Shown here piece by piece: positions 39,320 to 62,418 of a stretch of DNA of 64,000 bases. The DNA is from an uncultured Prevotellaceae bacterium (GTDB lineage Bacteria; Bacteroidota; Bacteroidia; Bacteroidales; Bacteroidaceae), in NCBI GenBank assembly GCA_902776935.1, contig CACYRS010000007.1, positions 1-64,000 on the forward strand. Direction: 5' to 3'. The notes beneath the pieces are model-generated. The model did no database searches. It was not told where the DNA came from and worked only from the letters and a program-made list of their open reading frames with translations. A program made the position numbers and the translations under genes. Within the stretch, counting starts at the first letter, position 1. Every line of letters begins with the position of its first letter.

Positions 39320-39384
39320 GTAAGAATAATTGACACCAGGAATACCACACCATTGGTATTTTCTCAAAAAGTGTCTACTTATCA

Positions 39385-39414
39385 TTGTTCATTCAGAAAA
39401 AAGCAGTACCTTTG
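39385..39414 (+). promoter_or_regulatory. promoter of tcdA
   Basis: TTG at 39385-39387, 19 bases, TACCTTTG at 39407-39414. The ATG lies 17 bases downstream. Confidence 0.65.
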
Positions 39415-44537: not shown

Positions 44538-45530
44538 CTATTTGTCTAACAATTCATTCAAAAACAACTCCAAATTGTCCCCTTTCAGATTGTGGGCAAT
44601 GATTTTACCGTCTGGGGATATCAGGAAATTGGCAGGAATCAGACGGATGCCGAATTTTACGACTCCATCACCAGCCCAGGCATTCTTGTCTATCAGCTGT
44701 AACCATCCGAGATGATCCTTTGTATATGCATTCTTCCATCTCTCAGCATTATTGTCTAAAGAGATGCTGACGATTTTTAATCCCTTATCTTTATATTTCG
44801 AATAGGCCTTTACAAGATTCGGATTCTCTGCCCTGCAAGGCGCACACCAAGATGCCCAAAAGTCAAATAATACAAAGCCATTGCCAATCAAAGAGGAAGA
44901 CTTTATTTCATTTCCGTTTTCATCATAAGCCACAAACTCTGGAGCATTTTCACCTATTCCGATTTTTTCTAGTACTGATGCCAGTTCTGTCAAGACTTTC
45001 ACGTATTCAGTATCTTGGAATCGCGAATCAAGATAACTTAATGCATTTCTTAATTCAACTGGGGTTATCCTGAAAGAATGATAGCGATACAGAATGTAAA
45101 GTGCAGCAATGGAACTCGGATGTTTTTGGATAAGGCTGATAATGTTTTCGCGCTTACTGACAAGCTCCTTAAACAGAGCATGTTCTTTTGAGCCGTATAC
45201 ATTGGTGTTCCTGAATTGTGATATGGAATCAAGTTCCACCTCAATGTTACCCTCATCAAGAAATATGATGAAAGAGTCAAACGGATTTGCTGTTGATGAC
45301 AAGTAGGATAAGCCATAGATTTCAGGCAACTTCAAATCAGATCTTTTACGAAACTCAAAACGACCGTCTCTTACCTCTGCGGAATCTATTGTAATAAAAG
45401 ACTTGTTTACATATTTCTGCAAATACACTTTCCCGTGGTTCGGATTAAGAGCCTTGCCACCAAGATGCAATTCCTGTGCAGAAAGGGATAATGCAAACGT
45501 CAATGCTACTATTGTTACTATTTTTCTCAT
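44538..45530 (-). CDS. TlpA-like thioredoxin-fold protein with DUF4369-type N-terminus
   Basis: 330 residues, exported (MRKIVTIVALTFALSLSAQ). The first half resembles the DUF4369 domain often found with Bacteroidetes thiol-disulfide proteins (GKVYLQKYVNKSFITIDSAEV). The second half is a TlpA/AhpC-type thioredoxin domain with the redox motif FWASWCAPCRAENP and the cis-proline in IRLIPANFL. It should reduce or shuffle disulfides in the periplasm. Its place between susD and two peptidases suggests a link to handling disulfide or cysteine-bearing substrates, which is an inference. Confidence 0.88.
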   Translation of the reverse strand: MRKIVTIVALTFALSLSAQELHLGGKALNPNHGKVYLQKYVNKSFITIDSAEVRDGRFEFRKRSDLKLPEIYGLSYLSSTANPFDSFIIFLDEGNIEVELDSISQFRNTNVYGSKEHALFKELVSKRENIISLIQKHPSSIAALYILYRYHSFRITPVELRNALSYLDSRFQDTEYVKVLTELASVLEKIGIGENAPEFVAYDENGNEIKSSSLIGNGFVLFDFWASWCAPCRAENPNLVKAYSKYKDKGLKIVSISLDNNAERWKNAYTKDHLGWLQLIDKNAWAGDGVVKFGIRLIPANFLISPDGKIIAHNLKGDNLELFLNELLDK

Positions 45531-47028: not shown

Positions 47029-50000
47029 TTAAAATGTTAAGTTCAGGCCAAAGGTAAATGTGCGACCATATCCGCCAGTATTATAATCCACACCAGGAGT
47101 AGTGTTAGAGTTTCCATTGGCAGACAATTCCGGATCTACGCCTGAATATCCAGTAAGGATAAATGCATTGTCTATCTGACCATAAATTCTTACACCTTTG
47201 ATGAATACATTGTTCAAGACTTTCTTTGGGAGATTATATGCCAGTGTAATATTCTGCAAACGCAGAAAATCTCCGTTCTCAACATGTTCTGAGATAGGAA
47301 CTGAGCCGCCAAAAGAGTAACGGTCACCTGTTACCAGGCGAGGTATATTCGTATCCTGCCCAGGAGTTGTCCAACGATCAAGCACTTCTGTTGAATTGTT
47401 AAAAAAGATCTGATCCGTAATGGTAGACTTAGAACGGTTCATAATCTTGTTACCACCAGCAAAACTGAAGCTAAAGTTAAGCTCAAATCCACGCCATTCA
47501 GTATTTGATATGATACCACCATACCACTTTGGCAGAGCATTGCCAAGAACGTAATAATCATCGCCACTAAGAGCTTTTGCTGTCCTTCCGTCAAGATAAG
47601 TCCATTTTCCCAAGCCATTGTACTGAACCTCTTCACCGGCTCCATTCAAGAATACACGCTGTCCATTCTCTGGGTTTACACGGAGGGTCTTCAGACCGTA
47701 AAGGCTTCCTACAGAGTAGCCAACCTTTGTAATATTGGTAGAGCCAGAACCTGTATATGAGATAATTGCACTCTCATCACCAGACAAGGCAGTAACCTCA
47801 TTCTTCAGATAAGTGAAATTTGTAGAAACATTCCATTTCCACTCCTTATTATTCAACACTTGATAATTCAGGCTGAATTCTACACCACGATTATACATGC
47901 TACCTACATTAGAGAGAATTGAGTTACCAACGATACCCTTCGATGGAGACTGAGGGACACTTAATATAAGGTCATCAACATTATTATTAAAATATGCCAA
48001 CTCCACGTGAAGTCTATCCTTGAATGCATCAAACGATAATCCAATATTTGTCTGACTACTTGTTTCCCAACTTAAATTATCATTTCCCTGTTGTGATATA
48101 TCCCAAGTGCTGGCGTCACCATATAGTGATGATGAATAGAGACTGAACGAGCTATAGTCATTTGTAATATTACCATTACCGACACGTCCCCAGCTAGCAT
48201 TCAACTTAAGATTGCTTATGGCATCTTTAGAGAGTGCATGTTTAAAGAATGGTTCGTCAGAAATGAGCCATCCAAAGGACAAGCCACCAAAATTACCATA
48301 TTTATGATTTTTGGCTAAAGCAGAGTTTCCGTCACGACGGAAATTAGTTGTTAAGAAATAACGATCTGACAACGTATAGCTAGCACGGAAGAAATATGAT
48401 ATATAGTTCCGTTCGCCTATCTGATTTCCTGTGGCTACAACATTAGCCCATCCTCCTTGGTAATAACGGAAGAAATCATCACTCTCCTTCGTAGCACGTG
48501 CACCCCAAAAATTCGTCGTATTATGTTGATAGTCGAAACCAACTAACAAAGAAATTTTGTGTAACTTCCCAAATATATCATCATAACCAAGAGTTGTATT
48601 GAAATCTTCATTTATGAACCTACTAGTAATATTAGTAACAGATCCTCCTGATGAACTAGCTCCTGAGCCAAGCTGTGTGCTGGCAAATGAGGTGCTTTCA
48701 TTGTTTATACGGTCTAGGGAATACTGTCCTGTCCATGTTATTTGCTTGACAGGCCTAAGGACAAACTTTATATTGCCGATAAAATGACTGTTATCTGAGG
48801 TATTGCTTGTCAGAGCTAAACGGGCCTCTGGATTATAGAGGGGAAAACTCGAATTGTTAGCACCAGATCCTAGAGTTCCACTGACAGGATTGACGTTGAA
48901 AGTACCGTCTTCATTATACGCTCCTACGTTCGGCGGAAGAACCAAGGCAAGGCGAGTTACACCATATGAACTCATAGATGATCCTGGACGGCTACCTGTG
49001 TCTGGCGACTCATTGAAACTAGAACTGTAATTGCTATTCAACGACAATGTCAACCAGTTTGTTATGCGGTCTTCTGCATTAAAACGAATACCTTTTCGTT
49101 CGAAATTATTTCCTTGGAAGATACCTTGCTGGTTTGAATAGTTAACAGAGAAATAATAAGTAATATTTTCTGTTCCACCAGAAATATCAATGTTATGATT
49201 ATGTGATATACCCGTACGATAAACATAGTCTTTCCAGTCAGTATCTACAATAGAACCATCAGAGTTTTTTTGCAACTGATAAACAAGTGAGCGGTTCCCT
49301 CCGTCGATATTATTTGCATTTGTAATTGCTTCGTTCTTTAGGGCAGTATACTGCTCCGCATTGAGCATCTCTGGAAGACGAACAGCATTAGTGAAGCTCA
49401 CCCAACCATTATAATGAGTCACAGCGCGTCCAGAACGTCCTTTTTTTGTGGTTACCAGAATAACACCACCAGCAGCCCTTGAACCATAAATAGCCGTAGA
49501 AGCAGCGTCTTTGAGGATGTCAATACTCTCAATATCACTTGGGTTAATGTCACTCAACGGATTGTTGGCAGCACTGTTTGTTGAGATGTCATCACTATAT
49601 ACAAGAACACCATCTATAACGAAAAGTGGCAAAGAACTTAGAGAAATGGAATTGACACCACGTATGCGGATGACCGAAGGCGCATTGAGTTGGCCGTTTG
49701 ATGCCGCCAGACTAACACCGGCAGCATGACCTGCGAGAGCCTGATCAAAACTTTGGATAGGGCGCTGGCTTACATCAGCACCGTTAATGCTGGATATTGA
49801 ACCAGTAAACTCTTTGCGTGATTGTGTACCATAACCGACAACAACTACTTCACTGAGACTATTGTAGTTTTCTCTCAATGTAATTTCTACAGGTTCCTCG
49901 AAATCATAGACATCCACGTCGAGAGCGCGATATCCAACGAATTCCACCCTGAGGGTCAATGGTGCCTCCACCTTTGTCTGGAGCTTGAAGTTTCCATCGA

Positions 50001-50163
50001 TGTCGGATACCACTCCTCTACCCTTCTCGCTCTTTACGATTACCGATGCGCCAATCAGTGGCTCACCAGTACGAACATTTGTAATATGACCTGTAATCAG
50101 GTTTTGTGCAGCAGCCAACAAAGGAGCAATAGCAAAACCTATTATAAATAATCCTTTTTTCAT
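47029..50163 (-). CDS. RagA/SusC TonB-dependent outer-membrane receptor (operon A)
   Basis: 1044 residues from MKKGLFIIGF at 50163; the eight upstream codons are optional. Signal peptide, then a carboxypeptidase-regulatory-like domain (GEPLIGASVIVKSEKGRGVVSDIDGNF), the SusC TonB-box region (LSEVVVVGYGTQ), plug domain with the SusC signature IRIRGVNSIS-like sequence and ILKDAASTAIYGSRAAGGVILVTTKKG-type motif, and a 22-strand barrel ending in FTFGLNLTF. It drives TonB-powered import of an oligomer captured by its SusD partner. It is preceded by a long hairpin (50184-50229). Confidence 0.95.
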   Translation of the reverse strand: MKKGLFIIGFAIAPLLAAAQNLITGHITNVRTGEPLIGASVIVKSEKGRGVVSDIDGNFKLQTKVEAPLTLRVEFVGYRALDVDVYDFEEPVEITLRENYNSLSEVVVVGYGTQSRKEFTGSISSINGADVSQRPIQSFDQALAGHAAGVSLAASNGQLNAPSVIRIRGVNSISLSSLPLFVIDGVLVYSDDISTNSAANNPLSDINPSDIESIDILKDAASTAIYGSRAAGGVILVTTKKGRSGRAVTHYNGWVSFTNAVRLPEMLNAEQYTALKNEAITNANNIDGGNRSLVYQLQKNSDGSIVDTDWKDYVYRTGISHNHNIDISGGTENITYYFSVNYSNQQGIFQGNNFERKGIRFNAEDRITNWLTLSLNSNYSSSFNESPDTGSRPGSSMSSYGVTRLALVLPPNVGAYNEDGTFNVNPVSGTLGSGANNSSFPLYNPEARLALTSNTSDNSHFIGNIKFVLRPVKQITWTGQYSLDRINNESTSFASTQLGSGASSSGGSVTNITSRFINEDFNTTLGYDDIFGKLHKISLLVGFDYQHNTTNFWGARATKESDDFFRYYQGGWANVVATGNQIGERNYISYFFRASYTLSDRYFLTTNFRRDGNSALAKNHKYGNFGGLSFGWLISDEPFFKHALSKDAISNLKLNASWGRVGNGNITNDYSSFSLYSSSLYGDASTWDISQQGNDNLSWETSSQTNIGLSFDAFKDRLHVELAYFNNNVDDLILSVPQSPSKGIVGNSILSNVGSMYNRGVEFSLNYQVLNNKEWKWNVSTNFTYLKNEVTALSGDESAIISYTGSGSTNITKVGYSVGSLYGLKTLRVNPENGQRVFLNGAGEEVQYNGLGKWTYLDGRTAKALSGDDYYVLGNALPKWYGGIISNTEWRGFELNFSFSFAGGNKIMNRSKSTITDQIFFNNSTEVLDRWTTPGQDTNIPRLVTGDRYSFGGSVPISEHVENGDFLRLQNITLAYNLPKKVLNNVFIKGVRIYGQIDNAFILTGYSGVDPELSANGNSNTTPGVDYNTGGYGRTFTFGLNLTF

Positions 50164-50183
50164 AATCGCTTCAGTTTTTGTGA

Positions 50184-50229
50184 GCATGGCTTTGGTAAGG
50201 ACAGCCCTTTCGGGCCATCCTAACCATGC
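50184..50229 (-). other. long GAAA-capped hairpin between the binding-protein gene and susC
   Basis: On the minus strand GCATGG pairs with CCATGC (50229-50224 with 50189-50184). Inside, TTAGGATGGCCC-GAAA-GGGCTGTCCTTA forms a long stem with one T-T mismatch, two wobbles and a GNRA tetraloop. No T-run follows. It is the only large gap inside operon A and may process or stabilise the message. Confidence 0.6.
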
Positions 50230-50262: not shown

Positions 50263-51186
50263 TTATTTCTGAGCGGTAAATTCCGACTTTACCTTCTCTA
50301 TCTGTGCCTGTGACTGTTTGTTGTCAAGGTTCAACAAACCGTATTCATGGTTGTATTTTGTGCCGGCAGTAAGAATCCAGCTAAGGAACTGGTTTACAGC
50401 ATCGTCGGCAATGTTATAGCTAACACCAATCTTCTCGACAGCAACTTCCTGTATCTTTCCATTCTCAAGTGCATCGATCACTTCGTCGAGTGTAGCCTCG
50501 TCAGAGAAGTTCTTTTCGAGGTTCTTCTTCACGTCGATACCTATCAAGGTAAGATCATTCTTAATATGACGACTCTTTAGGTCGAAGATGTTTGGCAGGG
50601 CGTTGAAAGATACTCCCAGAGGGTCTTTCAACAGAGCGGTATTGATAAAAAGGTCATCGCCAGAGATACGCTTGCCGCGGAAATTACTGCTCTCCTCACC
50701 GAAGTTATGAGCAAAGGAAGAGGCAACGGATGTGGCATTGCTGCCGCTATAGATTACAAGCTTCTCGAACTGCTTGATTTTCTTTACATCCTCTTCGAAA
50801 TCATCGTTGAGAAAATAAAGCTGCTTTAGCTTCTTGGAGTTCAGGTGCTTGCCTTCCAGCACTTTAGCAGCTTCACTGCCACTGGCTGTGATAGGCAGCA
50901 CGGCGAACTCTCCAAAATAAACAACTATATGGCTAAAGTCTTTGGTCTTTTCTTGACTGTCAAATACGACATTCAAATCGATGTTATCCTTACCCTTGGC
51001 GATCTGGAACTCCACGCCGGGCTGTGTTTTTGCATATTCAGATATCCACTTCTCTACCAAAGGACGGGCAAAACGTGGTGCCTTCACGTAGCGTACACTA
51101 CTTGTATTGGTAGAATTACCCTCAGCCCAAACGCTGCTGATGTTGATACTCAACAAAACTGCTATCGCTAAAACTATCTTTTTCAT
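50263..51186 (-). CDS. periplasmic substrate-binding-like protein (PstS-like fold), operon A
   Basis: 307 residues, exported (MKKIVLAIAVLLSINISSVWA). No close family is recognised with certainty. The segments AKGKDNIDLNVVF, VVYFGEFAVLPITASGSEAA, GKHLNSKKLKQLYF, VIYSGSNATSVASSFAHNF and DPLGVSFNALPNIFDL resemble the two-lobed phosphate/PstS-type binding proteins. It is the first gene of operon A, followed by a hairpin and susC. The 62-residue Cys-rich leader frame overlaps its first 65 bases in another frame. It might bind a small product in the periplasm or modulate the SusC complex; an ABC permease is not present. Confidence 0.65.
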   Translation of the reverse strand: MKKIVLAIAVLLSINISSVWAEGNSTNTSSVRYVKAPRFARPLVEKWISEYAKTQPGVEFQIAKGKDNIDLNVVFDSQEKTKDFSHIVVYFGEFAVLPITASGSEAAKVLEGKHLNSKKLKQLYFLNDDFEEDVKKIKQFEKLVIYSGSNATSVASSFAHNFGEESSNFRGKRISGDDLFINTALLKDPLGVSFNALPNIFDLKSRHIKNDLTLIGIDVKKNLEKNFSDEATLDEVIDALENGKIQEVAVEKIGVSYNIADDAVNQFLSWILTAGTKYNHEYGLLNLDNKQSQAQIEKVKSEFTAQK

Positions 51187-51310
51187 ATTTCTTCTTTTTT
51201 ACTTTGTTATTTACACCTATTATATATATTTCTCCTTTCATTGACCATGCCATCATACAACAGCAACAACACTCTTGCATTTGCATTCGATTCATTGTTT
51301 TCATAACCAT
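51122..51310 (-). CDS. Met/Cys-rich leader ORF A (62 aa), overlapping the binding-protein gene
   Basis: It starts about 53 bases after the expected transcription start. The N-terminal part reads MVMKTMNRMQMQECCCCCMM, with five consecutive Cys codons at 51257-51271, then a region ending YIIGVNNKVKKKKYEK and a tail that overlaps the downstream gene. The ATG of the downstream gene lies inside the TAT codon of the YEK segment. The twin at 58580-58771 has the same layout, and the indels between them are 6, 3 and 3 bases. No Shine-Dalgarno is seen. A regulatory leader peptide is more likely than a stable protein. Confidence 0.5.
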   Translation of the reverse strand: MVMKTMNRMQMQECCCCCMMAWSMKGEIYIIGVNNKVKKKKYEKDSFSDSSFVEYQHQQRLG

Positions 51311-51369
51311 CTGATTTTTAATTTTTTATTTATTATTTATTATTGTCTATTTATCTCTGTTTCTGGGTG

Positions 51370-51400
51370 CAAAGGTACGGTGATTTTCACATACCCACAA
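51370..51400 (-). promoter_or_regulatory. promoter of operon A
   Basis: On the minus strand TTG (51400-51398), 20 bases, TACCTTTG (51377-51370), in the shared context GGGATTGTGG...CACCCAGAAACA. An almost perfect palindrome GGCATATCATATACC lies at 51413-51427. Region 51187-51445 therefore holds leader, promoter and possible operator. Confidence 0.75.
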
Positions 51401-51445
51401 TCCCATTGTTGCGGCATATCATATACCAAACCTTTGGGATACAGC

Positions 51446-52870
51446 CTAATTTGCACTTTTATTTATCAATATTTCGTAAGATGGCAGTGCCCAGCAGTAT
51501 GAAGTACGGTCACTTGGGGTTGCCACGACCACTGTGTCCCAATGGCCATTTGTACGAGTGGCTGCAGGATGAACGAAATCCTCTGCCCTACGGCTGATGT
51601 CGAGACCTCTGATGCCTTCGCCTATAAACTCAGCACGGCGTTCGTTGTAGATGGCATCACGGAGTTTATCACCTGTTAATGTTGTCACATCGAGGATATC
51701 CCCTGTAGGAACAGATCTGCTACGTACCTGATGGAGCAATTGGGCTGCCTTCTCATAATTGCCGATATTATAATAACTCTCGGAGAGGTTAAGCAGGGTC
51801 TCGGCATAACGGAAGATATGTATCCACTCCAGCGGTGTTGTGTACTCATCATATTTCTCATACCAGGTCTCACGTCCGGTGGCGGGATCGACCTTGATAA
51901 ACGATATACGGCTATCTGTATCGAGATTGTAGGCGGGAAGAGTGATGATGCCTGTACGTACATTAAGTGTGTCGATATATCCTACAGCACTTGAAATATA
52001 ACTGGCAGGATTACCGCCACCTCGTTCGGTGTTGGTAAATGGAAGCGAGTATATGTTTTCAGCAGTGTGATAAGGAGCATCAAACATATCGCGCACATTG
52101 GCGCTAAGAGAGAATCCCGATACCTTCTCACCCTCGCTGATGGCATCCTGCCACTGTTGCTTAGCCATATAGATACGCTGCAGGAGCATGTGGGCTGCTG
52201 ACTGTGTTGGGATAGTAGGATCGCCACCGGCTGGCAGTGAAGCTATTGTGTTGCTGTTCAGGTCAGAAATAATCTGATCATAAACTTCCCCGATGGTCCA
52301 CAGGCGTGCATCGTTATGACCTGGTCCCAGCACTGCTTCCGTATGAATGGGTATAGCCTTGGAATCGGGGTCATAGGCATAAGGCTGGGAATAGACCTGC
52401 GACAGATAGTACCAGCTGATATCACGGATAAAGAGACAGCTGGCGATATATTGCTGACGCTTGGCCTCGCTTATTGGCAGATTGTCGCGCTTCTCCAGAT
52501 TCTCCTTCACGGTATTGGCTGCATTGATAGCAAGATATCCAGCCTGGAAAAATCCAGGGTTCATGATGCTGTTTTGACCCACGGTCATATTATAGGTATC
52601 CGAATGGGCATAGGTGTTGTTACCTGTATTAACGAAGTCGTCGCTACGGTTATCGAAGATGACGGCAATGTTTCCACCAGCAAAGCTACTGCTTTTGAAA
52701 CGGGTATATACACCTGCAACAGCTGCATCGATAAGGTCTTCAGAAGCGTAGATGTCAGCCTCTGTCACGTTAAGCTTCGGATTTTTCTCGAGGAAATCCT
52801 CACCGCAAGATGTCAGCACCAAGACTGACAAGAGGGCTATAATAACTGATTTATATGATATCTTGTTCAT
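51446..52870 (-). CDS. RagB/SusD family lipoprotein (operon B)
   Basis: 474 residues. A lipoprotein signal (MNKISYKSVIIALLSVLVLTSC, Cys22) is followed by GEDFLEKNPKLNVTEADIYASEDL and the SusD helical body (SCLFIRDISWYYLSQVYSQPYA near 150, FRYAETLLNLSESYYNIGNY near 350). It is the surface ligand-binding lid of the operon B importer and the last gene of that operon. Its stop lies about 70 bases before the -7 box of operon A, so the two operons are back to back; no terminator with a T-run is obvious between them. Confidence 0.92.
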   Translation of the reverse strand: MNKISYKSVIIALLSVLVLTSCGEDFLEKNPKLNVTEADIYASEDLIDAAVAGVYTRFKSSSFAGGNIAVIFDNRSDDFVNTGNNTYAHSDTYNMTVGQNSIMNPGFFQAGYLAINAANTVKENLEKRDNLPISEAKRQQYIASCLFIRDISWYYLSQVYSQPYAYDPDSKAIPIHTEAVLGPGHNDARLWTIGEVYDQIISDLNSNTIASLPAGGDPTIPTQSAAHMLLQRIYMAKQQWQDAISEGEKVSGFSLSANVRDMFDAPYHTAENIYSLPFTNTERGGGNPASYISSAVGYIDTLNVRTGIITLPAYNLDTDSRISFIKVDPATGRETWYEKYDEYTTPLEWIHIFRYAETLLNLSESYYNIGNYEKAAQLLHQVRSRSVPTGDILDVTTLTGDKLRDAIYNERRAEFIGEGIRGLDISRRAEDFVHPAATRTNGHWDTVVVATPSDRTSYCWALPSYEILINKSAN

Positions 52871-52884
52871 AATTGCTATTTTTA

Positions 52885-55800
52885 TTAGAATGATACATTT
52901 ACACCAAAGGTGATTGTACGTGTAGGCGGTGTTGTGTTAAGATCAATACCAGAGCGGAGATTAGCACTATTGTAATAAGAATTGATCTCTGGGTCGAATC
53001 CTGTGTAGCCCGTGATGCAAAACAGGTTCTGAGCCTGTGCATAGAGTCTTACCGACGAGATACCCCAATCCTGTGCCCACTTCTTTGTATTAAACTGATA
53101 ACCTATGGATAGGCTCTGCAGACGGATAAAATCACCACTTTCAATCAAGTCGGTAATAAGGTTGGCTGTACCATTAGAGTAGTTATCATTATATGATGCC
53201 TTGGCGTATTTCGCATTGTCACCAGGCTGGCGCCATATATTCTCGTAGTACTCTTCGGTACCGCTCCACATACGTCCGTCGGAGAGTGTGGCTCTCATAC
53301 CGTTAATGATTTTGTTGCCTCCAGAGAAGTGGAAATTAACCTTGGCATCCCAGTTCTTATAACGGAACGTGTTGCTCCACCCACCATAATAAGTGGGTTT
53401 CGTGTTTCCTGAGATCTCAGGCTTCCAGTCGCTCATCGTATATTTAGAGGGGGTTTCACCATCGAGCTCATAGAGTTGTGCACCACCCTTTCCGTACTTA
53501 TATATCAACAGTGTCCGATCATATGAGCCATCCTCCTTCTTAATCAGTACTACGCGACGTCCTGTCTGCGGGTCGATACCATCAGTAGGATAGGCATAAA
53601 GCTGAGCCATAGAATAACCTTCTGTAGTGATGTTGGCTCCTGTAGAACTGGAGAAAAGTATATCATCGGCCAATTCTGTTACCTCATTCTTTATCAGTGA
53701 AATATTAAAGCTACTGCTCCAGGTGAAATTCTTCTTCCTGATAAGATCACCACTGACAGTAATCTCAAGGCCCTTATTCACCGTCTTACCGAGGTTGGTG
53801 GATACTGACGCTCCTACAATACCTGTTGAGTAGGCCTGAGAAGCATCGAGGATAAGGTCTTTCGACTTTGAATAGAAATAATCAACATCGATATTAAAAC
53901 GCCCTTTCAGCAGTGATGCACTAAAACCGATATCTGCTGTGCCCGTCTGTTCCCATCCCAAATCCGGATCATTGATACCAGATGAGATGTAGGATACGCT
54001 ACCATTATAGGTAGATGATGAATAAACACTCTTAGAGGCGTACCAGTCTACATTGGCATTACCAACCACACCATAGCTCACCTTTATCTTCAGATCATCG
54101 ATAGTATGTCGTAAATCGTGGAAGAAAGCCTCATCAGAGATACGCCATGCACCACTGACACCATAGAAGTTACCCCACTTACGACCTAGTTTTGAGAGTC
54201 CGTCACGACGCCAGTTGGCTGTAAGATAATAACGGTTCTTCCAGTCATATGTGAAACGGCTGATATAACTGAACATACTGCTCTCCTGAATATTGCCCGA
54301 GCCGCCATAGGTGAGATAAGATGCCTCTACATACATCTGGTCTGGATTGCTTAGAGTAGTACCTGTACGAGATATGATACTCTGATTGCTTTCTGAAGCT
54401 TCTATACCGAAGAGGATGTCGAAATGATGCTTCTTGATATCGAACTGGTAGTTGGCGGTATTCGTCCATGTCCAGCTCTTCAGGTTGGAGGTTCCTGTAC
54501 GACTGCTACCGCTAGGATATCCACCACCATGAAGAGGAGTGCTGAAAGACTCGTTTTGGATCAGTGTCCAGTCAATGCCATACAGTGTCTTCAGTGTAAG
54601 ACCTTTAACAGGAGTAATCTCAGCATATCCATTAGCAAGGATACGGTGGGTCTTCGACTCTGCATACTGCCCACCCTCTACAAGACCAAGGGCATTGTAA
54701 TAGAAGACCTCTATAGCATTGTTTCCCTTACCAAGATTACGTGGAGCCAGTGTAGAGGCATAGAAAGTGCCGTCTTCATTGTGAGAAGGAACATTTGGCA
54801 GGTCAACATATGCCAGACGTGTCAGGCCACCCATAGCACTAAGTGAACCACCACGCGAATCATCAGCAGTATGAATCTTACTATAAGTATAGCCTGAGTT
54901 GAAACCCACTTTAACATATTTGTTAAGTTTATAGGTTCCGTTGCCCTTAAATGAGAAACGGTTGTATTTGGCATCCACCGTTATACCCTCCTGAGTGGTA
55001 TAGCTTCCTGAGAGGTAATAGGTTGCCTTATCATTGCCACCCTGAAGGTTCAGGTTATGATTCTGTGACAGACCTGTACGGAACACGAGTTCTACCCAGT
55101 TAGTATTGACGATATTGCCGTTTTTATCAGTCATCGTGGCATAAGGCAGTTTATTGGGGTCACCACCATTATTCAACCATCCCTGATTCTTTATCTCAGT
55201 ATATTGCTCTGCGTTCATAGGTGTAAGTAATTTCGTTGCAGAGTTGAATCCGATGTTATAGTCGTATGTCAGTTTCGATTTTCCCGACGAACCGGAATTA
55301 GTAGTGATGAGTACCACACCTGCTGCAGCCCTAGAACCATACATTGCACTGGCAGCTGCATCCTTCAGGATATCAATTGACTTGATATCAGCAGGATTGA
55401 TATCTGAAATGGGGTTATAATCTGTGTTTGATGCGATGTTATTCGAATTGATGGGTACCCCGTCAACAACATACAGTGGTGTAACGCTGGAAGTGATGGA
55501 TGCCAGTCCGCGAATGTTGATCACAGGAGCAGAGCCCACCTGTGACCCTGATGTGGATACCATCACACCTGCAGCATGTCCTTCGAGGATATTATCGATA
55601 CTGTTTCCCGTCACGCCCTTCAATGATTCATTATTTATTGATGTGATCGAGGCAGTGAGGTCGCGAAGCTTCGCTGTGCCATAGCCTATCACTACGACTT
55701 CGTTAAGCAAACGATAGTTTTCGCGGAGAAAAATCTCAACAGGTTCACTGGTGTCATACACTTCAATCTCCTGGGCAAGATAGCCTATATAGGTCACGTC

Positions 55801-56010
55801 TAAGGTATAAGGCTCCTCACCGGAAATGGCGAGTGAAAAATTACCATCGATATCACTTACTGCACTGTTATGTGTGCCTCGTATCTGTATTGCAGCTCCG
55901 ATTACCGGCTCCTGGGTACGGGCATCAAGTACCCTACCCTGGAGCACGTCTTGCGCTGATGCACAAACGGTCACAATCAAGGCAATAATATATAATAAAA
56001 GTCTTTTCAT
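52885..56010 (-). CDS. RagA/SusC TonB-dependent outer-membrane receptor (operon B)
   Basis: 1041 residues. Signal peptide (MKRLLLYIIALIVTVCASAQ), carboxypeptidase-regulatory-like domain (EPVIGAAIQIRGTHNSAVSDIDG), LLNEVVVIGYGTAK, plug domain with INIRGLASITS and IDILKDAAASAMYGSRAAAG, then the barrel with terminal FGVNVSF. It has the same architecture as the operon A receptor but is clearly diverged in the barrel, so ligands may differ. It lies 36 bases after the M14 carboxypeptidase and 14 bases before its susD. Confidence 0.95.
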   Translation of the reverse strand: MKRLLLYIIALIVTVCASAQDVLQGRVLDARTQEPVIGAAIQIRGTHNSAVSDIDGNFSLAISGEEPYTLDVTYIGYLAQEIEVYDTSEPVEIFLRENYRLLNEVVVIGYGTAKLRDLTASITSINNESLKGVTGNSIDNILEGHAAGVMVSTSGSQVGSAPVINIRGLASITSSVTPLYVVDGVPINSNNIASNTDYNPISDINPADIKSIDILKDAAASAMYGSRAAAGVVLITTNSGSSGKSKLTYDYNIGFNSATKLLTPMNAEQYTEIKNQGWLNNGGDPNKLPYATMTDKNGNIVNTNWVELVFRTGLSQNHNLNLQGGNDKATYYLSGSYTTQEGITVDAKYNRFSFKGNGTYKLNKYVKVGFNSGYTYSKIHTADDSRGGSLSAMGGLTRLAYVDLPNVPSHNEDGTFYASTLAPRNLGKGNNAIEVFYYNALGLVEGGQYAESKTHRILANGYAEITPVKGLTLKTLYGIDWTLIQNESFSTPLHGGGYPSGSSRTGTSNLKSWTWTNTANYQFDIKKHHFDILFGIEASESNQSIISRTGTTLSNPDQMYVEASYLTYGGSGNIQESSMFSYISRFTYDWKNRYYLTANWRRDGLSKLGRKWGNFYGVSGAWRISDEAFFHDLRHTIDDLKIKVSYGVVGNANVDWYASKSVYSSSTYNGSVSYISSGINDPDLGWEQTGTADIGFSASLLKGRFNIDVDYFYSKSKDLILDASQAYSTGIVGASVSTNLGKTVNKGLEITVSGDLIRKKNFTWSSSFNISLIKNEVTELADDILFSSSTGANITTEGYSMAQLYAYPTDGIDPQTGRRVVLIKKEDGSYDRTLLIYKYGKGGAQLYELDGETPSKYTMSDWKPEISGNTKPTYYGGWSNTFRYKNWDAKVNFHFSGGNKIINGMRATLSDGRMWSGTEEYYENIWRQPGDNAKYAKASYNDNYSNGTANLITDLIESGDFIRLQSLSIGYQFNTKKWAQDWGISSVRLYAQAQNLFCITGYTGFDPEINSYYNSANLRSGIDLNTTPPTRTITFGVNVSF

Positions 56011-56046
56011 ACTATTATCCTTATTAAAAAAACAATCTGGTATTTT

Positions 56047-58647
56047 TTATGGGCGATAGCGTGAAGATGTCGACACATTGTTGCCAAAGAAAAGTGCATT
56101 TGTCAGGATGCGCCCTGTACTGAGCCAATAACCGCGATAGGTGGGTGACTCGCTGAACAGAACAATCGTTCCCGCCCCTACATTATCAAGGGCAATCACT
56201 GTCGCATTCTTCAACAGTTTCTGATTTGCTTTTGTCAGGTATCCTCCCAGTTGCTTATCACCCTTGAGCTGTAACAATGAACTGTAAGGGCTCTGTGGGC
56301 GCGGCAAGATATAGTTGCCTGACTTCATGGTATAGAGCTGACGACTATGAATACCAAAGGCCAGCGGGTTGGTGATGTCGAGATCGGCTTCATAGAGTAC
56401 ACCGCCAATACGGCTCGGACCTATCTTCTCACGCTGTGATACGTAGTCAAGACGCTGATAGTCATGCTTCCCTCCTTGTTTCTCATTAACAGTTTCTTCC
56501 TCTGATGCAGTGAAATGAACAGCAATACCGTTCTTTATAGCCCACTGTGAGGCACGCTGTGTAGTGATTAAGACACCACCTTCAGCAACCCAGTTCTTCA
56601 AGCGCTCGACAAACCTCTGGGAGAAGTTTTGATATGAGCCATCTGCAAGTATGATAGCCGTATAGCGATTCAGTGGTGTGCGGTCAGCATATTCAACAAA
56701 GATCTTTGTCAATGGTATATGATGATGGTTGCCTAACAAGTGCCATATCTCTCCGATGGCTGTCCAGTTGATGCCGGTATAGCCTCCTGTGCTGACAAAA
56801 GTAGCAACAACTGGCTTCCTTACTTCCTGTATATTGTCACTTCCTAGGTCAATGCCTTCACTGCTTGCGCTGGAAGAAACACTGTATACCTGCACGTCAG
56901 TCTCCGCAACAGCCTCTTGGATAACATGATATACGCTGTCAGCTGAGATTGTCTGATATACAAGGGGAACAACAAGAGTGCCTGTAGCAAAGTTCTGTTT
57001 TCCTCTCTCAACAGTCTCTGCAGAGAAAGTCTTATATGCTGCTTTCACGTAAACACCTCTGTCAAGCAAGTGATACAATACGCGTGGAGCATATAAGTCG
57101 GCATAGTCGATGACGTAGGCAAACTGTGATTTCTGGAAATTACCAGACTTTACAGCAGGAACCTCCTTCACCACATCTCCCACGCTGATGCCTGCAGCCA
57201 CTCTTGCAAATGGGAAGCCAAAGCCATGAGCAGTACTCCAGGCTGTAATGTCCATAAAGATACTGTCAACAAACTCTGTGTGTTCCTCAAAGGCAGCATT
57301 TACCAGTCGGTACTGTGCCTGAGCCAAAGGGATGGCATAGGCTGCCCCTGCCTTAAACTGCTTGCTACCCTGCGTATAGTCTTTTGTCAGCTGACGAACC
57401 TCAATCTTGTGACGCAGAAGGTTGTCGAGAAACAGGTTTGTAGCCCCTTTGTTCTCCCTGTCACCAAACACGATATATCCCTTTCCACCCTTTGCTACAG
57501 CACTCTTGAAGAAATCCTGCTGATGACGGAGAAATATATCCTTCTTGTCTGTTCCGGCTTTCAGGGCACCGATACTGGTAACAAGATTGTCACGGATATT
57601 CTTTGCAAAGCGATGAACACCGAGTGACGACTCTACCTGAACACCCTGCGAACTGCCAACCTCAAGCGTTGTGCCCACACCGCCCTGGAAATCCGGATAA
57701 GTTGAACCATATATAGGTGAGATGTTATCATAGTTCTCTTTCGTGAAATACAGCGAACCTATCTTGTCGAGTGCTGCACCGAAATAATCAGCAAGGATTA
57801 CGTTCAGTTCCGTATATGTGCTTTCTGGAATAGTGTAGTTCCATGTACTGCGTACTGGTGACGGCTCGAAATAGTAGCTGCTGTTACGGCCCATCTCATG
57901 GTAATCGGCATAGATATTAGGATACCACTGATGGTAGTAATCAGCTCTCGCACGACTCTCTGGGTGCACCAAGGCAAACCAGTCACGATTCAGGTCAGCA
58001 TAGAAATGATTGCCACGCAGAGGAGTGAAGCTCTGTGTATGTTCAATGTCAAGTGCATCATCGACAGGAGGAACCGAATGGAAAGAGTTATAATACTGTG
58101 CAGCTCTTTCGCGACCGTCAGGGTTGAGTGCCGGCTCTATCAGTATAACGGCATCGCCCAGTCTTTTCACTATATCAGCATTCTGGGTGGCTACAAAATA
58201 GTAGGCTGCCAGAACAGATGCGTCGGTACCTGCCAACTCACCACCATGCACGTTATATCCCAACTGGATTATCACCTTCTGATCATCGTAAGAAGTGGGA
58301 TAACCATAGTTCGGATCTACCAGTTTTACATGGTTCTGACGGATATTCTCTAAGTTTTGGATGTTTTCCGGTGTGGAAATGTGGAGTATCACATACTCGC
58401 GGTTTTCATGGGAATGACCTATCACCTTCAGTTGTGCACGACTTGACAACTTATCAAGCAAACGGAAATACTCTACAACCTTATCATATCTTACCAATTC
58501 TGATCCAATAGGAAAACCGAAGAATTCTTCAGGTGTTGGTATTGACTTGTCGAATTGGTTATCACTCCCAAAAAAGTAATCAGTTGCCCAAATACTGTTG
58601 ACGCTGAGGCTTAAAAATGCTACTATTACTAAAACTAATCTTTTCAT
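56047..58647 (-). CDS. exported M14-family zinc carboxypeptidase
   Basis: 866 residues. A signal peptide (MKRLVLVIVAFLSLSVNSIWA) precedes the M14 domain, with the zinc site HGGE in YNVHGGELAG (about residue 155), NPDGRERA, a later His in YADYHEMGRNSSYY, and the catalytic-type Glu in LEVGSSQGVQVES. The C-terminal half is a long extension with a class I glutamine-amidotransferase-like fold (EGGVLITTQRASQW), common in this Bacteroidetes subgroup. It should trim C-terminal residues of peptides in the periplasm or at the surface. It is the first gene of operon B, directly behind the Met/Cys-rich leader. Confidence 0.88.
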   Translation of the reverse strand: MKRLVLVIVAFLSLSVNSIWATDYFFGSDNQFDKSIPTPEEFFGFPIGSELVRYDKVVEYFRLLDKLSSRAQLKVIGHSHENREYVILHISTPENIQNLENIRQNHVKLVDPNYGYPTSYDDQKVIIQLGYNVHGGELAGTDASVLAAYYFVATQNADIVKRLGDAVILIEPALNPDGRERAAQYYNSFHSVPPVDDALDIEHTQSFTPLRGNHFYADLNRDWFALVHPESRARADYYHQWYPNIYADYHEMGRNSSYYFEPSPVRSTWNYTIPESTYTELNVILADYFGAALDKIGSLYFTKENYDNISPIYGSTYPDFQGGVGTTLEVGSSQGVQVESSLGVHRFAKNIRDNLVTSIGALKAGTDKKDIFLRHQQDFFKSAVAKGGKGYIVFGDRENKGATNLFLDNLLRHKIEVRQLTKDYTQGSKQFKAGAAYAIPLAQAQYRLVNAAFEEHTEFVDSIFMDITAWSTAHGFGFPFARVAAGISVGDVVKEVPAVKSGNFQKSQFAYVIDYADLYAPRVLYHLLDRGVYVKAAYKTFSAETVERGKQNFATGTLVVPLVYQTISADSVYHVIQEAVAETDVQVYSVSSSASSEGIDLGSDNIQEVRKPVVATFVSTGGYTGINWTAIGEIWHLLGNHHHIPLTKIFVEYADRTPLNRYTAIILADGSYQNFSQRFVERLKNWVAEGGVLITTQRASQWAIKNGIAVHFTASEEETVNEKQGGKHDYQRLDYVSQREKIGPSRIGGVLYEADLDITNPLAFGIHSRQLYTMKSGNYILPRPQSPYSSLLQLKGDKQLGGYLTKANQKLLKNATVIALDNVGAGTIVLFSESPTYRGYWLSTGRILTNALFFGNNVSTSSRYRP

Positions 58648-58771
58648 ATCTTTTTTTCTTTACTTTGTTAATACCTATTATATATACACTCACTTTTGTT
58701 GTCATTGCCATCATACTGCAATAACACTCTTGCATTCGCATTCGCATTCGATTCATTGTTTTCATAACCAT
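58580..58771 (-). CDS. Met/Cys-rich leader ORF B (63 aa), overlapping the M14 gene
   Basis: It starts about 36 bases after the expected transcription start. The N-terminal part reads MVMKTMNRMRMRMQECYCSM, followed by MAMTTKVSVYIIGINKVKKK and a tail overlapping the M14 gene by 68 bases. The M14 ATG sits in the same position relative to the YEK segment as in leader A. CGAATG is tandemly repeated three times and encodes R-M units. Cys codons are at 58724-58726 and 58718-58720. Coding is supported by frame-preserving indels against the twin; a stable product is not proven. Confidence 0.5.
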   Translation of the reverse strand: MVMKTMNRMRMRMQECYCSMMAMTTKVSVYIIGINKVKKKRYEKISFSNSSIFKPQRQQYLGN

Positions 58772-58813
58772 TTAATTTTATATTATATATTTCATACTTT
58801 ATGTTTCCGGGTG

Positions 58814-58844
58814 CAAAGGTACGGCGATTCTGCGGATACCACAA
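58814..58844 (-). promoter_or_regulatory. promoter of operon B
   Basis: On the minus strand TTG (58844-58842), 20 bases, TACCTTTG (58821-58814), in the context GGGATTGTGG...CACCCGGAAACA shared with operon A. Confidence 0.75.
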
Positions 58845-59042
58845 TCCCAAGAGTTGGTCATTTCACCTACCATAATTAAGTGATACACATCGCGCGAACA
58901 TTATATTAATATTAAGCATAAACAAGGTTTTTAGCCACATTTTAGAGTTTTATTCTGTTTAAGGCCACTTTTTAGGTCTCAATTAGAAAGATATTCTTTA
59001 ACAAATAGAATTGCAGATATATTTTCCAAATAACGCAATAAA
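58845..59042. promoter_or_regulatory. AT-rich divergent control region with a 30-bp spaced direct repeat
   Basis: About 200 bases between the operon B and metY promoters. The only regular element I see is GCCACATTTTAG (58934-58945) and GCCACTTTTTAG (58964-58975), exactly 30 bases apart in the same orientation, about 70-110 bases upstream of the metY -33 box. No gene is seen. Confidence 0.4.
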
Positions 59043-59074
59043 TTTGGTAGATAATTCTAAAGTCCGTACCTTTG
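59043..59074 (+). promoter_or_regulatory. promoter of metY
   Basis: TTTG at 59043-59046, 20 bases, TACCTTTG at 59067-59074: a perfect consensus match. AAAGGA stands before the ATG at 59119. Confidence 0.82.
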
Positions 59075-59118
59075 CACCCAGAAATCAATTATTAATAAAT
59101 TTAAGAAAGGATAAGATT

Positions 59119-60408
59119 ATGAGTACAAAGAAAAATTACCGTTTTGAGACATTGCAACTCCATGTAGGCCAAGAACAGGCTGACCCCGCAACCGACGCTC
59201 GCGCCGTGCCCATCTATCAGACCACGTCGTATGTGTTCCATAACTCACAGCACGCCGCTGACCGCTTCGGACTTCGCGATGCAGGTAATATTTATGGTCG
59301 TCTGACAAACTCCACTCAGGGAGTATTCGAGGATCGTGTTGCTGCCCTCGAGGGAGGTGTTGGAGGTTTGGCCGTAGCCTCTGGTGCCGCTGCTATCACA
59401 TACGCCTTGCAGAACATCGTACAGGCTGGCGATCATATCGTAGCTGCCGACAACCTCTATGGCGGTTCTTACAATCTCATCACCCACACGCTGGCTACAC
59501 AGGGCATCACCAACACGATTATTAATGTGAACGACCTCGAAGCCCTCGATGCAGCCATCCAGCCAAATACGAAGGTGGTTTATGCCGAGACTTTCGGCAA
59601 TCCCAATAGCGACGTGCTCGACCTCGAAGGTGTGGCTGCTGTAGCCCATAAGCACGGCATCCCCTTCATCGTCGACAACACCTTCGGCACACCTTATCTC
59701 ATCCGTCCTCTGGAGCACGGTGCTGATATCGTGGTACACTCAGCCACAAAGTTCTTAGGCGGTCATGGAAGCTCATTAGGCGGTGTCATCGTCGACGGTG
59801 GCAAGTTCGACTGGAAGCAGAACGATAAGTTCCCAACGCTTGCTAAGCCAGACCCAAGCTATCATGGCATCGTGTTTGCCGACGCTGTAGGCGCAGCAGC
59901 TTACGTCACCCGTATCCGTGCCGTCATACTGCGCGACACTGGTGCAGCCATCTCACCTTTCAACGCATTCATCCTATTGCAGGGTGTAGAGACTCTGAGT
60001 CTTCGTGTGGAGCGTCATGTGGAGAATGCCCTGAAGGTAGTCGATTTCCTCGCTAAGCACCCCAAGGTGGCAAAGGTAAACCATCCTGCCCTCGAAAGTC
60101 ATCACGACCACGCGCTCTATCAGAAGTACTTCCCTAATGGCGGTGGCTCGATATTCACCTTCGAGATCAAGGGTGGACAGGAAGAGGCCTGGAAATTTAT
60201 CGATGCCCTGCAGATATTCTCATTGCTGGCAAACGTGGCCGATGTGAAGAGCCTGGTGATTCATCCATACACCACCACCCACTCACAGCTGTCGCCTGAG
60301 GAACTGGCTGAGCAGCACATCACGCCATCGACCGTCCGTCTGAGCATCGGTACAGAGCACATCAACGACATCATCGATGATCTGGCTCAGGCTCTCGACA
60401 AGATTTGA
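59119..60408 (+). CDS. metY: O-acetylhomoserine aminocarboxypropyltransferase (sulfhydrylase)
   Basis: 429 residues from ATG at 59119; the longer frame from 59011 covers the promoter. A Cys/Met-metabolism PLP enzyme with the MetY-type start YRFETLQLHVGQEQADPATDARAVPIYQTTS split by family motifs: IYGRLTNST near 65, FGNPNSDVLD, IVDNTFGTPYL and the PLP lysine in VHSATKFLGGHG near 212. The extra insert after HGSSLGGVIVDGGKFDW and the length (about 430) separate it from MetB. It makes homocysteine from O-acetylhomoserine and sulfide. It has its own strong promoter. Confidence 0.93.
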   Translation: MSTKKNYRFETLQLHVGQEQADPATDARAVPIYQTTSYVFHNSQHAADRFGLRDAGNIYGRLTNSTQGVFEDRVAALEGGVGGLAVASGAAAITYALQNIVQAGDHIVAADNLYGGSYNLITHTLATQGITNTIINVNDLEALDAAIQPNTKVVYAETFGNPNSDVLDLEGVAAVAHKHGIPFIVDNTFGTPYLIRPLEHGADIVVHSATKFLGGHGSSLGGVIVDGGKFDWKQNDKFPTLAKPDPSYHGIVFADAVGAAAYVTRIRAVILRDTGAAISPFNAFILLQGVETLSLRVERHVENALKVVDFLAKHPKVAKVNHPALESHHDHALYQKYFPNGGGSIFTFEIKGGQEEAWKFIDALQIFSLLANVADVKSLVIHPYTTTHSQLSPEELAEQHITPSTVRLSIGTEHINDIIDDLAQALDKI

Positions 60409-60510: not shown

Positions 60511-61155
60511 ATGAGAAATTATATTATAGCCGACAATCAGGAACTGACGCGATTCGCGTTAGAGAGCCTGCTTCAGAAAGACGAGGGAAACGTAGTGTAT
60601 CGTGCTTTCGACAAAGCCAGACTCGTAGAACTGCTAAAGGAGAACGAGAGCGCAGTTGTGTTGCTCGACTACACCCTATTCGACTTTGCCGACGAAGATC
60701 AGCTCCTGATTATAGCTGAACGTTTCAGTCTGTCGCAATGGATTCTTATCAGCGACGATCTTACACCACAGTTCATACGACGTGTGGTCTATTCATCGCA
60801 CCAATTCAGTGTGGTATATAAAGACGGCCCCTTGAGTGAGCTTCGCGAGGCTCTCAGCGCTGTCAACCGCCATACACGCTATCTCAGCCAGCGAGCTCTC
60901 GAGAGTATCATCACACAGCAACAGCAAGATGAAGAAGCACCAAGCATCCTGACGACAACAGAGATGGAGATAGTAAAGGGCATAGCACTGGGTAAGACTA
61001 CCAAGGAGATTGCTGCCGAGCGTTTCTCCAGCATCCATACAGTGACTACCCACAGGAAAAACATCTTCCGCAAACTGGGTATCAACACAGCACACGAAGC
61101 GGTAAAATACGCGCTCCGAGCGGGGTTGATTGATCCGTCGGAATTCTACATCTAA
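60511..61155 (+). CDS. NarL/LuxR-type response regulator
   Basis: 214 residues. The N-terminal receiver-like domain has an acidic residue pair weaker than usual (IIADNQEL has a single Asp at residue 8) and a candidate phosphoacceptor Asp in VVLLDYTLFDFAD (about 53). The C-terminal LuxR helix-turn-helix is typical: LTTTEMEIVKGIALGKTTKEIAAERFSSIHTVTTHRKNIFRKLG. No sensor kinase gene is adjacent, so it is an orphan. It sits between sulfur-metabolism genes (metY before it, MetB-like and SufS convergent after it), which makes a role in controlling them a fair guess only. Confidence 0.88.
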   Translation: MRNYIIADNQELTRFALESLLQKDEGNVVYRAFDKARLVELLKENESAVVLLDYTLFDFADEDQLLIIAERFSLSQWILISDDLTPQFIRRVVYSSHQFSVVYKDGPLSELREALSAVNRHTRYLSQRALESIITQQQQDEEAPSILTTTEMEIVKGIALGKTTKEIAAERFSSIHTVTTHRKNIFRKLGINTAHEAVKYALRAGLIDPSEFYI

Positions 61156-61156
61156 C

Positions 61157-61187
61157 AAAAAGTGAAGAGTTGCCTCTTCACTTTTTT
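61157..61187. terminator. bidirectional terminator
   Basis: AAAAAGTGAAGAG (61157-61169), loop TTGC, CTCTTCACTTTTTT (61174-61187). It serves the LuxR gene and the convergent MetB-like gene. Confidence 0.9.
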
Positions 61188-62418
61188 ATTTCACAGCCTG
61201 CTTGATATCTTCCAGAAGGTCTTCTCCGGCCTCAAGACCAATGCTGAGGCGTACTGTGGTGTCTGGGACAGACATCTCGGCACATTGCTCAGGGGTGAAG
61301 AGACCGAAGATCGTCGAGGCAGGATGTATAGCCAGCGACTTACGGTCGAAGAGGTTTGTAGCGCGACGAATCACCTGCAACTTATCAATGAATGCCCAAG
61401 CGGCTTCCTTCGATTCGAGGTCGATGGTAAAAACTGCACCTGGTAACGGACCGAATTGTGCCTTCGACAATTCATAGAAAGGATTATCCTCCAAGCCTGT
61501 ATAGTTCACACGTTTGATTTCGGGTAGCGCTTGACATTGTTTGGCAAGCCATAGTGTGGTCTCTGCTTGGCGACGGAAACGGATGTCGAGTGTGTCAAGT
61601 CCGAGCGTCTCCATATAGGCCACCTGCGGTGTCATCAGCGAACCGAGATTCGTCACTAATTCTGTCTTTACACGCGCCGTAAATGCCAGTTTCGTTCCTA
61701 CTTTCTTTGTTCGGCTCTGCAAGGCTGGGGAGGGCGACTGCGACCAGTCGAACCGTCCGTAGTCGATGAGCAGACCGCCGAGACCTGTGCCACCACCAGA
61801 GATATACTTTGTGCTGGACACCACCTCGATATCCACACCGAAATCTCCGGCATGGAAGGCAGGGAACGGCACGATGGTCGTGTCGGCTATCAGGGGCACA
61901 CCCTTGGAATGGGCTATCTCCGACAGCTGGCGGATGTCAGCCACGAACAGCTGCGGATTGGTGATGATCTCGAAGAACAGTGCGGCGGTTTTATCGTCAA
62001 TCTGTGCCTCCACCTCCTCGGGCTTCGTGAAGTCTACGAATCGCGGTTCCACTCCGAAACTACCCAACGTGTCGCGAATCAGCGAGACGCTGTTGCCAAA
62101 CAGATGCTTCGAGGCTACGATATTCAGGCCTGCTGCACTCACCGCTGTCAGGGCATAGTGGATAGCCGCCATACCCGTGTTCAGTGCCGTCACGCTGGTA
62201 GCCCCAGTAATCTGTCGCACGCGCTCCTCCAAATATGTGGTCGTGGGGTTGGCGATACGGGCATACGACGGGTCCATCGAGCGACCGCAGAAGGCATCGT
62301 TCATCGCCTTGGCCGAGGGGAACTCGAACGCCGCTGTGAGATACACCGGCATCGAGAGGGCCCCATAGGCGTCAGGCTTCTGATACTTTGTGGTTAATAC
62401 TTTCGTTTCGTATTGCAC
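61186..62418 (-). CDS. Cys/Met-metabolism PLP enzyme (cystathionine gamma-synthase / gamma-lyase-like)
   Basis: 410 residues. The PLP lysine is in EVVSSTKYISGGGTG (about 206) and the cofactor Asp in LIADTTIVPFP. The YARIANPTTTYLEERV start and the STIFGLFTPEQ end belong to the trans-sulfuration enzyme family. Several signature positions are unusual: HAGDFGVDIEVVSSTKY replaces the common ADIVVHSATKY block. The exact reaction (cystathionine synthesis, sulfhydrylation or gamma-elimination) cannot be told. It lies 36 bases downstream of the cysteine desulfurase and should be in its operon. Confidence 0.85.
   Translation of the reverse strand: MQYETKVLTTKYQKPDAYGALSMPVYLTAAFEFPSAKAMNDAFCGRSMDPSYARIANPTTTYLEERVRQITGATSVTALNTGMAAIHYALTAVSAAGLNIVASKHLFGNSVSLIRDTLGSFGVEPRFVDFTKPEEVEAQIDDKTAALFFEIITNPQLFVADIRQLSEIAHSKGVPLIADTTIVPFPAFHAGDFGVDIEVVSSTKYISGGGTGLGGLLIDYGRFDWSQSPSPALQSRTKKVGTKLAFTARVKTELVTNLGSLMTPQVAYMETLGLDTLDIRFRRQAETTLWLAKQCQALPEIKRVNYTGLEDNPFYELSKAQFGPLPGAVFTIDLESKEAAWAFIDKLQVIRRATNLFDRKSLAIHPASTIFGLFTPEQCAEMSVPDTTVRLSIGLEAGEDLLEDIKQAVK

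Follow-up and report, generated by a model that had tools for sequence, protein, structure and literature searches.

Two operons on the minus strand of the window, the 64,000-nucleotide stretch of an uncultured Prevotellaceae bacterium that was analysed (contig CACYRS010000007.1), each begin with a small open reading frame (ORF) that carries clustered Cys codons and runs into the first gene of the operon. A preliminary description took these frames for possible twin leader peptides that sense cysteine. This raises the question of whether the frames are kept as coding sequence, with which genes they are associated and by what step they could control them.

Leader frames A and B and the operons behind them

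The leader ORFs and the genes of the two operons are located as follows.

51122..51310 (-): leader ORF A, 62 aa, with ECCCCC; starts MVMKTMNRMQMQECCCCCMMAW...; one of the 38 Prevotella-type copies described below
50263..51186 (-): first gene of operon A, presumably substrate-binding-protein-like ("PBP"), with PstS-like proteins as weaker relatives; no match to a Pfam family above its cut-off
47029..50187 (-): presumably a SusC-type TonB-dependent transporter, operon A; start possibly overcalled
45538..47010 (-): SusD-type lipoprotein, operon A; PF14322 and PF07980 above cut-off
44538..45530 (-): thioredoxin-like protein with DUF4369, operon A; domain search
42498..44522 (-): S9 prolyl oligopeptidase family peptidase, operon A; domain search
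41022..42494 (-): M20-type amidohydrolase/peptidase, operon A; domain searches
58580..58771 (-): leader ORF B, 63 aa, with ECYC; starts MVMKTMNRMRMRMQECYCSMMAM...
56047..58647 (-): M14 zinc carboxypeptidase, first gene of operon B; PF00246 above cut-off
52885..56010 (-): presumably a SusC-type transporter, operon B
51446..52870 (-): presumably a SusD-type lipoprotein, operon B

Positions and readings of both leader frames were borne out when the sequence was re-read, and the overlap with the next gene (65 nt in A and 68 nt in B) is in an identical relative frame, as had been claimed. Alternative in-frame starts are present at 51304 (leader A) and 58765 (leader B). The differences between the copies were described as three indels of 6, 3 and 3 nt. 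They do keep the frame, but two leader gaps of 3 nt, one per copy, were found here, and the earlier count is an alternative placement of the in-frame differences. The Cys run of leader B is weak (CYC). The PBP profile found no relatives in the PDB at E 0.01.

In one global alignment, A and B were 76 % identical over operator and promoter, 48 % over the UTR, 80 % over the non-overlapping part of the leader and 73 % over the overlap, with identity falling to 57 % and 52 % past the leader stop. This profile gives promoter, leader and signal-peptide start the look of a single cassette that was copied. M14 genes of leader-less relatives (L041, L042, L045 and L053) start with different signal peptides, which indicates that the cassette, including its signal-peptide start, was seemingly copied in front of M14. 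In the genome of the window, which is 75.6 % complete, only these two leader copies were found.

Conservation of the leader in Prevotella and in other families

A single-sequence protein search of 201 family genomes gave only weak matches outside the leaders' own genome (best E 0.018), and one of the weak matches (G047, E 0.08) turned out to be a true member. Matches in G035, G623, G737 and G935 were discarded as chance after reading. A profile made from eight leaders found matches at E ≤0.05 in 44 of the 398 genomes of the same genus; of these, 29 genomes supplied the 35 places that were taken (E <1e-4), and weaker matches (the sole ones in 15 of the 44 genomes) were left out. With a wider profile, seven of 399 family genomes gave a match, and three places were added from them after reading; two of 295 genomes over the order also matched, from which zero copies were added. 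The homolog search that the preliminary description proposed yielded 38 Prevotella-type copies, with the two of the window counted. Two leader-bearing contigs (L035 and L039) and a divergent further copy in L349 are not among the 38.

The gene after the leader was PBP in 32 of the 38 copies and M14 in six (leader B of the window and five other genomes). The leader overlaps the next gene by 50–80 nt in 37 copies, the exception being G293, where a non-triplet length change after the Cys/Met part breaks the frame and the stop lies 5 nt before the gene. A break of this kind, which the preliminary description had held to speak against its reading, was therefore seen in one copy, whereas the other 37 keep the frame. 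As the break in G293 lies past the Cys part, either the overlap is unneeded there or that copy is damaged. An in-frame insertion behind the Cys block, LGKRHIVSSGC, is common to the leaders of G547 and G511 (L170 and L172).

The distance from leader start to gene start had a single residue modulo 3 in 37 of the 38 copies, with 10 lengths among these 37 and 11 overall (gene starts of G447 and G419 being shifted by 21 nt to a shared ATG). The distance from promoter to leader was spread over the three residues (13, 15 and 9 of the 37 copies with a promoter; 25 lengths). A codon alignment of 37 copies, with G293 excluded, contained no stop in frame 0 (0/37), and all 37 copies had stops in each of frames 1 and 2. 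The pN/pS ratio of the leader was 0.41 (bootstrap 95 % 0.30–0.56), with 0.33 in the first part and 0.58 in the second, where TAT and ATA codons are strongly fixed. Pooled dN/dS for the first part was 0.16 in frame; the shifted frames gave 1.02 and 0.41, and the lowish value of 0.41 counts against the cysteine-sensing explanation favoured below. The substitution and indel-periodicity checks that had been suggested thus agreed, with constraint in frame 0 and in-frame length changes in 37 of 38 copies.

One alignment column was Cys in 36 of 37 copies, encoded by TGT in 31 and TGC in five. All 38 leaders contain at least two Cys, adjacent in 34 (leader B is among the four others), and the last Cys codon is 70–82 nt ahead of the gene (median 76, n=38). 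This comparison indicates that the frame is maintained as protein and that Cys is retained through synonymous codon changes. It also indicates that both leader ORFs of the window are real, beyond chance, as members of a set of 38 copies, relatives included, in which the frame is kept. Met makes up 16 % of leader residues with the start excluded, which refines the "perhaps Met" of the preliminary description, Met being as prominent as Cys. This enrichment suggests a second sensed amino acid, although the ATGCGA repeats could alternatively have grown by slippage.

Outside the genus, relatives of PBP were split by profile E-value into a subfamily (24 loci) and distant paralogs (19 controls). By a fixed rule, an upstream ORF (uORF) with adjacent Cys was present at 16 of 24 subfamily loci vs one of 19 distant paralogs (Fisher p 3.7e-5, a count that ignores relatedness and includes two controls, L272 and L273, that are nearer paralogs than intended). 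Shuffled sequences had such a uORF in a mean of 5 %. In one genus of another Bacteroidales family, (K/R)RMRMCCCC followed by two residues closes the leader at all eight loci. In a second family, runs such as YCCPHMRMCMPC, GMRMSMCCC, ARMCMCCCMC and MMCCCYMGMCM were present at nine of 11 loci; these nine include G1124, which has MCCF only and starts just outside the counted window. The remaining two comprised one doubtful case (G1104) and one locus without a leader (G1116). No such leader was found at five subfamily loci from two other genera of the window's family, and of the five distant relatives that were read first, two (L184 and L186) were likewise without a separate leader. The leader stop in other families is 74–170 nt ahead of the gene, and forms of 16–24 aa occur in one of them. 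The PBP gene of Dysgonomonas sp. BGC7 is preceded by a frame of 53 codons that ends in MRMHCC, and that of G840 by a short frame ending in RCCQ.

An order-wide pattern, Met-Arg-Met-X-Cys-Cys, was set aside: 17 of 158 genomes contained 19 sites between them (reversed control, five), and a PBP/SusC operon was recognised at none. The PBP-like genes of L042, L045, L053 and L186 have no separate leader and contain CC(P)MM or MMMCCYM within their own signal peptide, which is possibly a fused leader, or chance. In L349 (G447 contig C60), the divergent leader, MKTMMNQMRMCCCCCSS..., reaches into the start of a PBP with an N-terminus like those of another family, and may connect the short leader type with the overlapping one.

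A candidate sulfur regulon

Predicted control sites of both operons and the genes beyond operon B are located as follows.

51370..51400 (-): predicted operon A promoter; TTG (51400-51398), 20 nt, TACCTTTG (51377-51370)
51424..51439 (-): degenerate operator A, TCCC-N8-GGTA (TACC-N8-GGTA in relatives)
58814..58844 (-): predicted operon B promoter; TTG (58844-58842), 20 nt, TACCTTTG (58821-58814)
58868..58883 (-): degenerate operator B, TCAC-N8-GGTA, from the sequence
59011..60408 (+): O-acetylhomoserine/O-acetylserine sulfhydrylase, divergent from operon B; TIGR01326 above cut-off, start overcalled
60511..61155 (+): LuxR/NarL-type regulator; PF00196 above cut-off, receiver domain below its cut-off
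61186..62418 (-): second Cys/Met metabolism PLP enzyme; PF01053 above cut-off

We take both promoters to be of the Bacteroidota type. In 37 of the 38 copies the leader is preceded by the promoter motif TTG-N-TAnnTTTG, and in 33 a full TACC-N8-GGTA palindrome (a 16-bp inverted repeat) lies upstream of the promoter; the two operators of the window are degenerate. The window does contain the full palindrome at 39343-39414. A full site there lies between a divergent pair of genes, one symporter-like by the look of its start (~39288, minus strand) and one of the ThiF family (39433, plus strand).

The combined operator-promoter pattern gave 118 sites, with those of the leader operons counted, vs four reversed in 35 genomes picked mostly because a leader or PBP was present. 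It matched in 28 of these and was missing from seven, all of other families. In 40 regions chosen mostly away from known leaders, 54 sites were upstream of 20 cysK-like, 11 ThiF-like, 11 DsrE-like (one confirmed by PF13686, the others named by look), six leader/PBP and six other genes. Among the 54 sites, a uORF with adjacent Cys was present at PBP operons only, cysK and the other regulon genes being without a leader. Sharing of the operator and promoter with cysK, the ThiF/JAB operon and the DsrE-like gene indicates that the leader operons belong to a sulfur/cysteine regulon, for which TACC-N8-GGTA with a downstream promoter is a candidate mark. The layout of this operator presumably fits a NarL/LuxR-type site. 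The LuxR-type gene at 60511-61155, which sits between two sulfhydrylase-type genes, is a candidate for the regulator that reads it; five further genomes (G536, G530, G473, G047 and G159) likewise have a LuxR-type gene within about 3.3 kb of a leader operon.

Unassigned neighbouring genes were scanned for 33 copies (the first 35 without the two of the window), and since the stretches scanned were of unequal length the counts are lower bounds: CysK-like genes in at least eight, symporter-like in at least 19, JAB-domain in at least 10 and sulfatase-like in at least two. Single examples were checked, with CysK and sulfatase maturase above their NCBIfam cut-offs and sulfatase, JAB and ThiF identified in Pfam; the symporter-like neighbour was under all NCBIfam cut-offs. 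Some genomes have CysK, sulfatase and sulfatase maturase genes beside or after leader operons. CysK is a neighbour and not a member of the leader operon, since it is preceded by a separate promoter, similar in type to that of the operon. In G840, of another family, the PBP gene is near JAB, ThiF and OAH-type genes. By this context of shared promoter motif and nearby CysK, sulfatase and sulfatase maturase genes, the leader-target genes appear to serve cysteine and sulfur supply. The preliminary description named peptide importers as the targets, which is too narrow; sulfur-scavenging SusC/SusD operons in general fit better, with a sulfatase in two genomes. Two further types of gene were observed after SusD: OsmC-like proteins of ~420 aa in G351, G310, G231, G047 and G159 (in tandem in some; one checked in Pfam) and a URO-D-like protein with a likely signal peptide in 12 copies (one checked).

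Probable cysteine sensing and competing explanations

Comparison across copies brings out conservation of the frame, its Cys residues, the Cys-to-gene distance and the regulon context, and argues that the leader ORF is real, under selection and part of a sulfur regulon. Cysteine sensing is the best explanation, and a probable one: a translated, cis-acting leader would gauge charged tRNA-Cys, and possibly tRNA-Met, and so control the first gene of sulfur-scavenging SusC/SusD operons, most likely letting the ribosome turn these genes on when cysteine is short. We infer both translation of the leader and sensing by it. The conserved frame and Cys, the regulon and the Cys uORFs of other families bear out this part of the preliminary description, whereas the weak run of copy B does not. 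Prevotella sp. P6B1 (G416) also counts against it, with a third PBP copy (contig C12 near 316400, L320) that has the same operator and promoter, no leader and only a relict of the overlap part. Further points against it are the three other leaders with no adjacent Cys, the broken frame of G293, the leader-less subfamily loci and distant relatives, the absence of such leaders from cysK and the remaining regulon genes, and the seven genomes in which the operator-promoter pattern was missing.

The operon would be transcribed from the cysteine/sulfur regulon promoter, as suggested by sites common with cysK, ThiF/JAB and DsrE-like genes. With cysteine plentiful, the leader would be read fast, and ribosomes passing 50–80 nt beyond the target start codon in another frame would crowd out initiation there. 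With cysteine short, ribosomes would stall at the leader Cys codons, the last of them 70–82 nt upstream, and leave the target start region free. Such occlusion of the start is plausible as the acting step, at somewhat less than an even chance. A bolder version is doubtful: a hairpin-free sensor of both Cys and Met that works purely by ribosome traffic across the target start, in a cassette of operator, promoter, leader and overlapping signal-peptide start that moves between genes as a unit, with different Cys/Met leaders, perhaps of repeated origin, ahead of similar operons across Bacteroidales. Leader peptides of the thr type sense two amino acids and would be an analogue if both Cys and Met were sensed; no attenuator hairpin was found here.

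No terminator-like hairpin was found between promoter and gene at A or B. Terminator-like matches were inside genes (two in the A region and one in the B region, the latter within M14, 48 nt past the stop of leader B, on a conserved coding stretch). The leaders of the window did not fold better than shuffles (z 0.19 and 2.41), and 37 distinct leader sequences had essentially no consensus fold (alifold energy -1.39); shuffling of this set gave near-zero variance and so no meaningful z. The fold of the eight leaders from one genus of another family beat column-shuffled alignments (z -4.95), with single folds that differ. Rfam covariance matches in the window at the gathering threshold were two tRNAs only, with no riboswitch or T-box. 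The alternative hairpins and terminator before the gene that make a classical hairpin-type attenuator were therefore not found.

This lack of a hairpin or conserved structure would suit a Cys/Met leader that acts through Rho-dependent termination, mRNA decay or translation coupling instead of start occlusion, with fast translation exposing RNA to Rho and stalling shielding it, or the reverse. On the same ground, the accessible text of PMC1262725 proposes a Rho-dependent step for mycobacterial Cys leaders. The leaders of other families, which stop well ahead of the gene, also speak for this alternative. It is unlikely, as the overlap of 50–80 nt is kept in 37 of 38 Prevotella-type copies and would be unneeded for Rho control. 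The absence of terminator and fold, together with the conserved overlap, favours control of initiation by ribosome traffic in Prevotella. Leaders that end 74–170 nt before the gene indicate that occlusion is no general mechanism; in the other families, provided that the leader has a function there, control must come about by another step, be it Rho, mRNA decay or local structure.

Met-X-Met and Cys clusters look like sites for soft metals, and CxxC is present in 17 of the 38 leaders. The nascent peptide could accordingly bind a metal such as copper and arrest or release the ribosome, in the manner of CruR (DUF2946) of Bordetella pertussis, described in the accessible text of PMC9426467 as a copper-sensing uORF with functional Cys at the head of a TonB-dependent transporter operon. 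The present leaders are likewise Cys-bearing uORFs before such operons. However, CruR has ~145 residues, usually a predicted export signal, CXXC and a RAPP arrest motif (same source), while RAPP, RGPP and PP were absent from all 38 leaders and the two ORFs of the window had no Pfam (DUF2946 included) or NCBIfam match at E 1. With the promoter motif also common to cysK and sulfur genes, metal sensing is quite improbable.

Slightly less probable still is that the leader is a by-product of a copied cassette of promoter, 5′UTR and signal peptide, open through nucleotide constraint near the gene start. The whole cassette is indeed common to A and B, and the second half of the leader is less constrained, with its fixed TAT and ATA codons. 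By-product status does not sit well with 38 copies that keep frame, Cys and in-frame length changes, or with the different Cys uORFs of other families. A small functional Cys/Met-rich protein acting in trans, for example by binding metal, would explain the protein-level constraint and is very improbable given the variable length, the overlap with the next gene, the forms of 16–24 aa in another family and the PBP or M14 gene adjoining each copy read in the 38.

Cysteine-sensing leaders have precedents outside Bacteroidota. Polycysteine leader ORFs precede mycobacterial cys genes (Canestrari 2020, cited in PMC13236596), and Cys leaders without a conserved terminator hairpin were predicted earlier in actinobacteria (PMC1262725, 2005). 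In the accessible text of these sources, the mycobacterial leaders are similarly short ORFs ahead of sulfur/cysteine genes and have their Cys codons in a run, but they belong to another phylum, are leaderless ORFs and precede genes of Cys biosynthesis. The present leader is within a 5′UTR, is Met-rich too, overlaps its target in Prevotella and precedes uptake operons of the SusC/SusD type. In Rhodobacterales, uORFC-8-2 before cysS is a uORF that also has tandem Cys codons and was proposed as a sensor of tRNA-Cys charging; as far as the accessible text of PMC8632094 describes it, it differs in preceding a cysteinyl-tRNA synthetase gene and in its two stems and intrinsic terminator, a structure not found here. 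Among the matches listed from the open-access literature, no Cys-responsive leader in Bacteroidota was found, and the present one, if true, is therefore possibly the first. It would then show gut and rumen bacteria coupling large SusC/SusD uptake systems to sulfur supply. The analysis also names a candidate sulfur regulon, comprising the operator, cysK, ThiF/JAB, the DsrE-like gene and the LuxR-type regulator.
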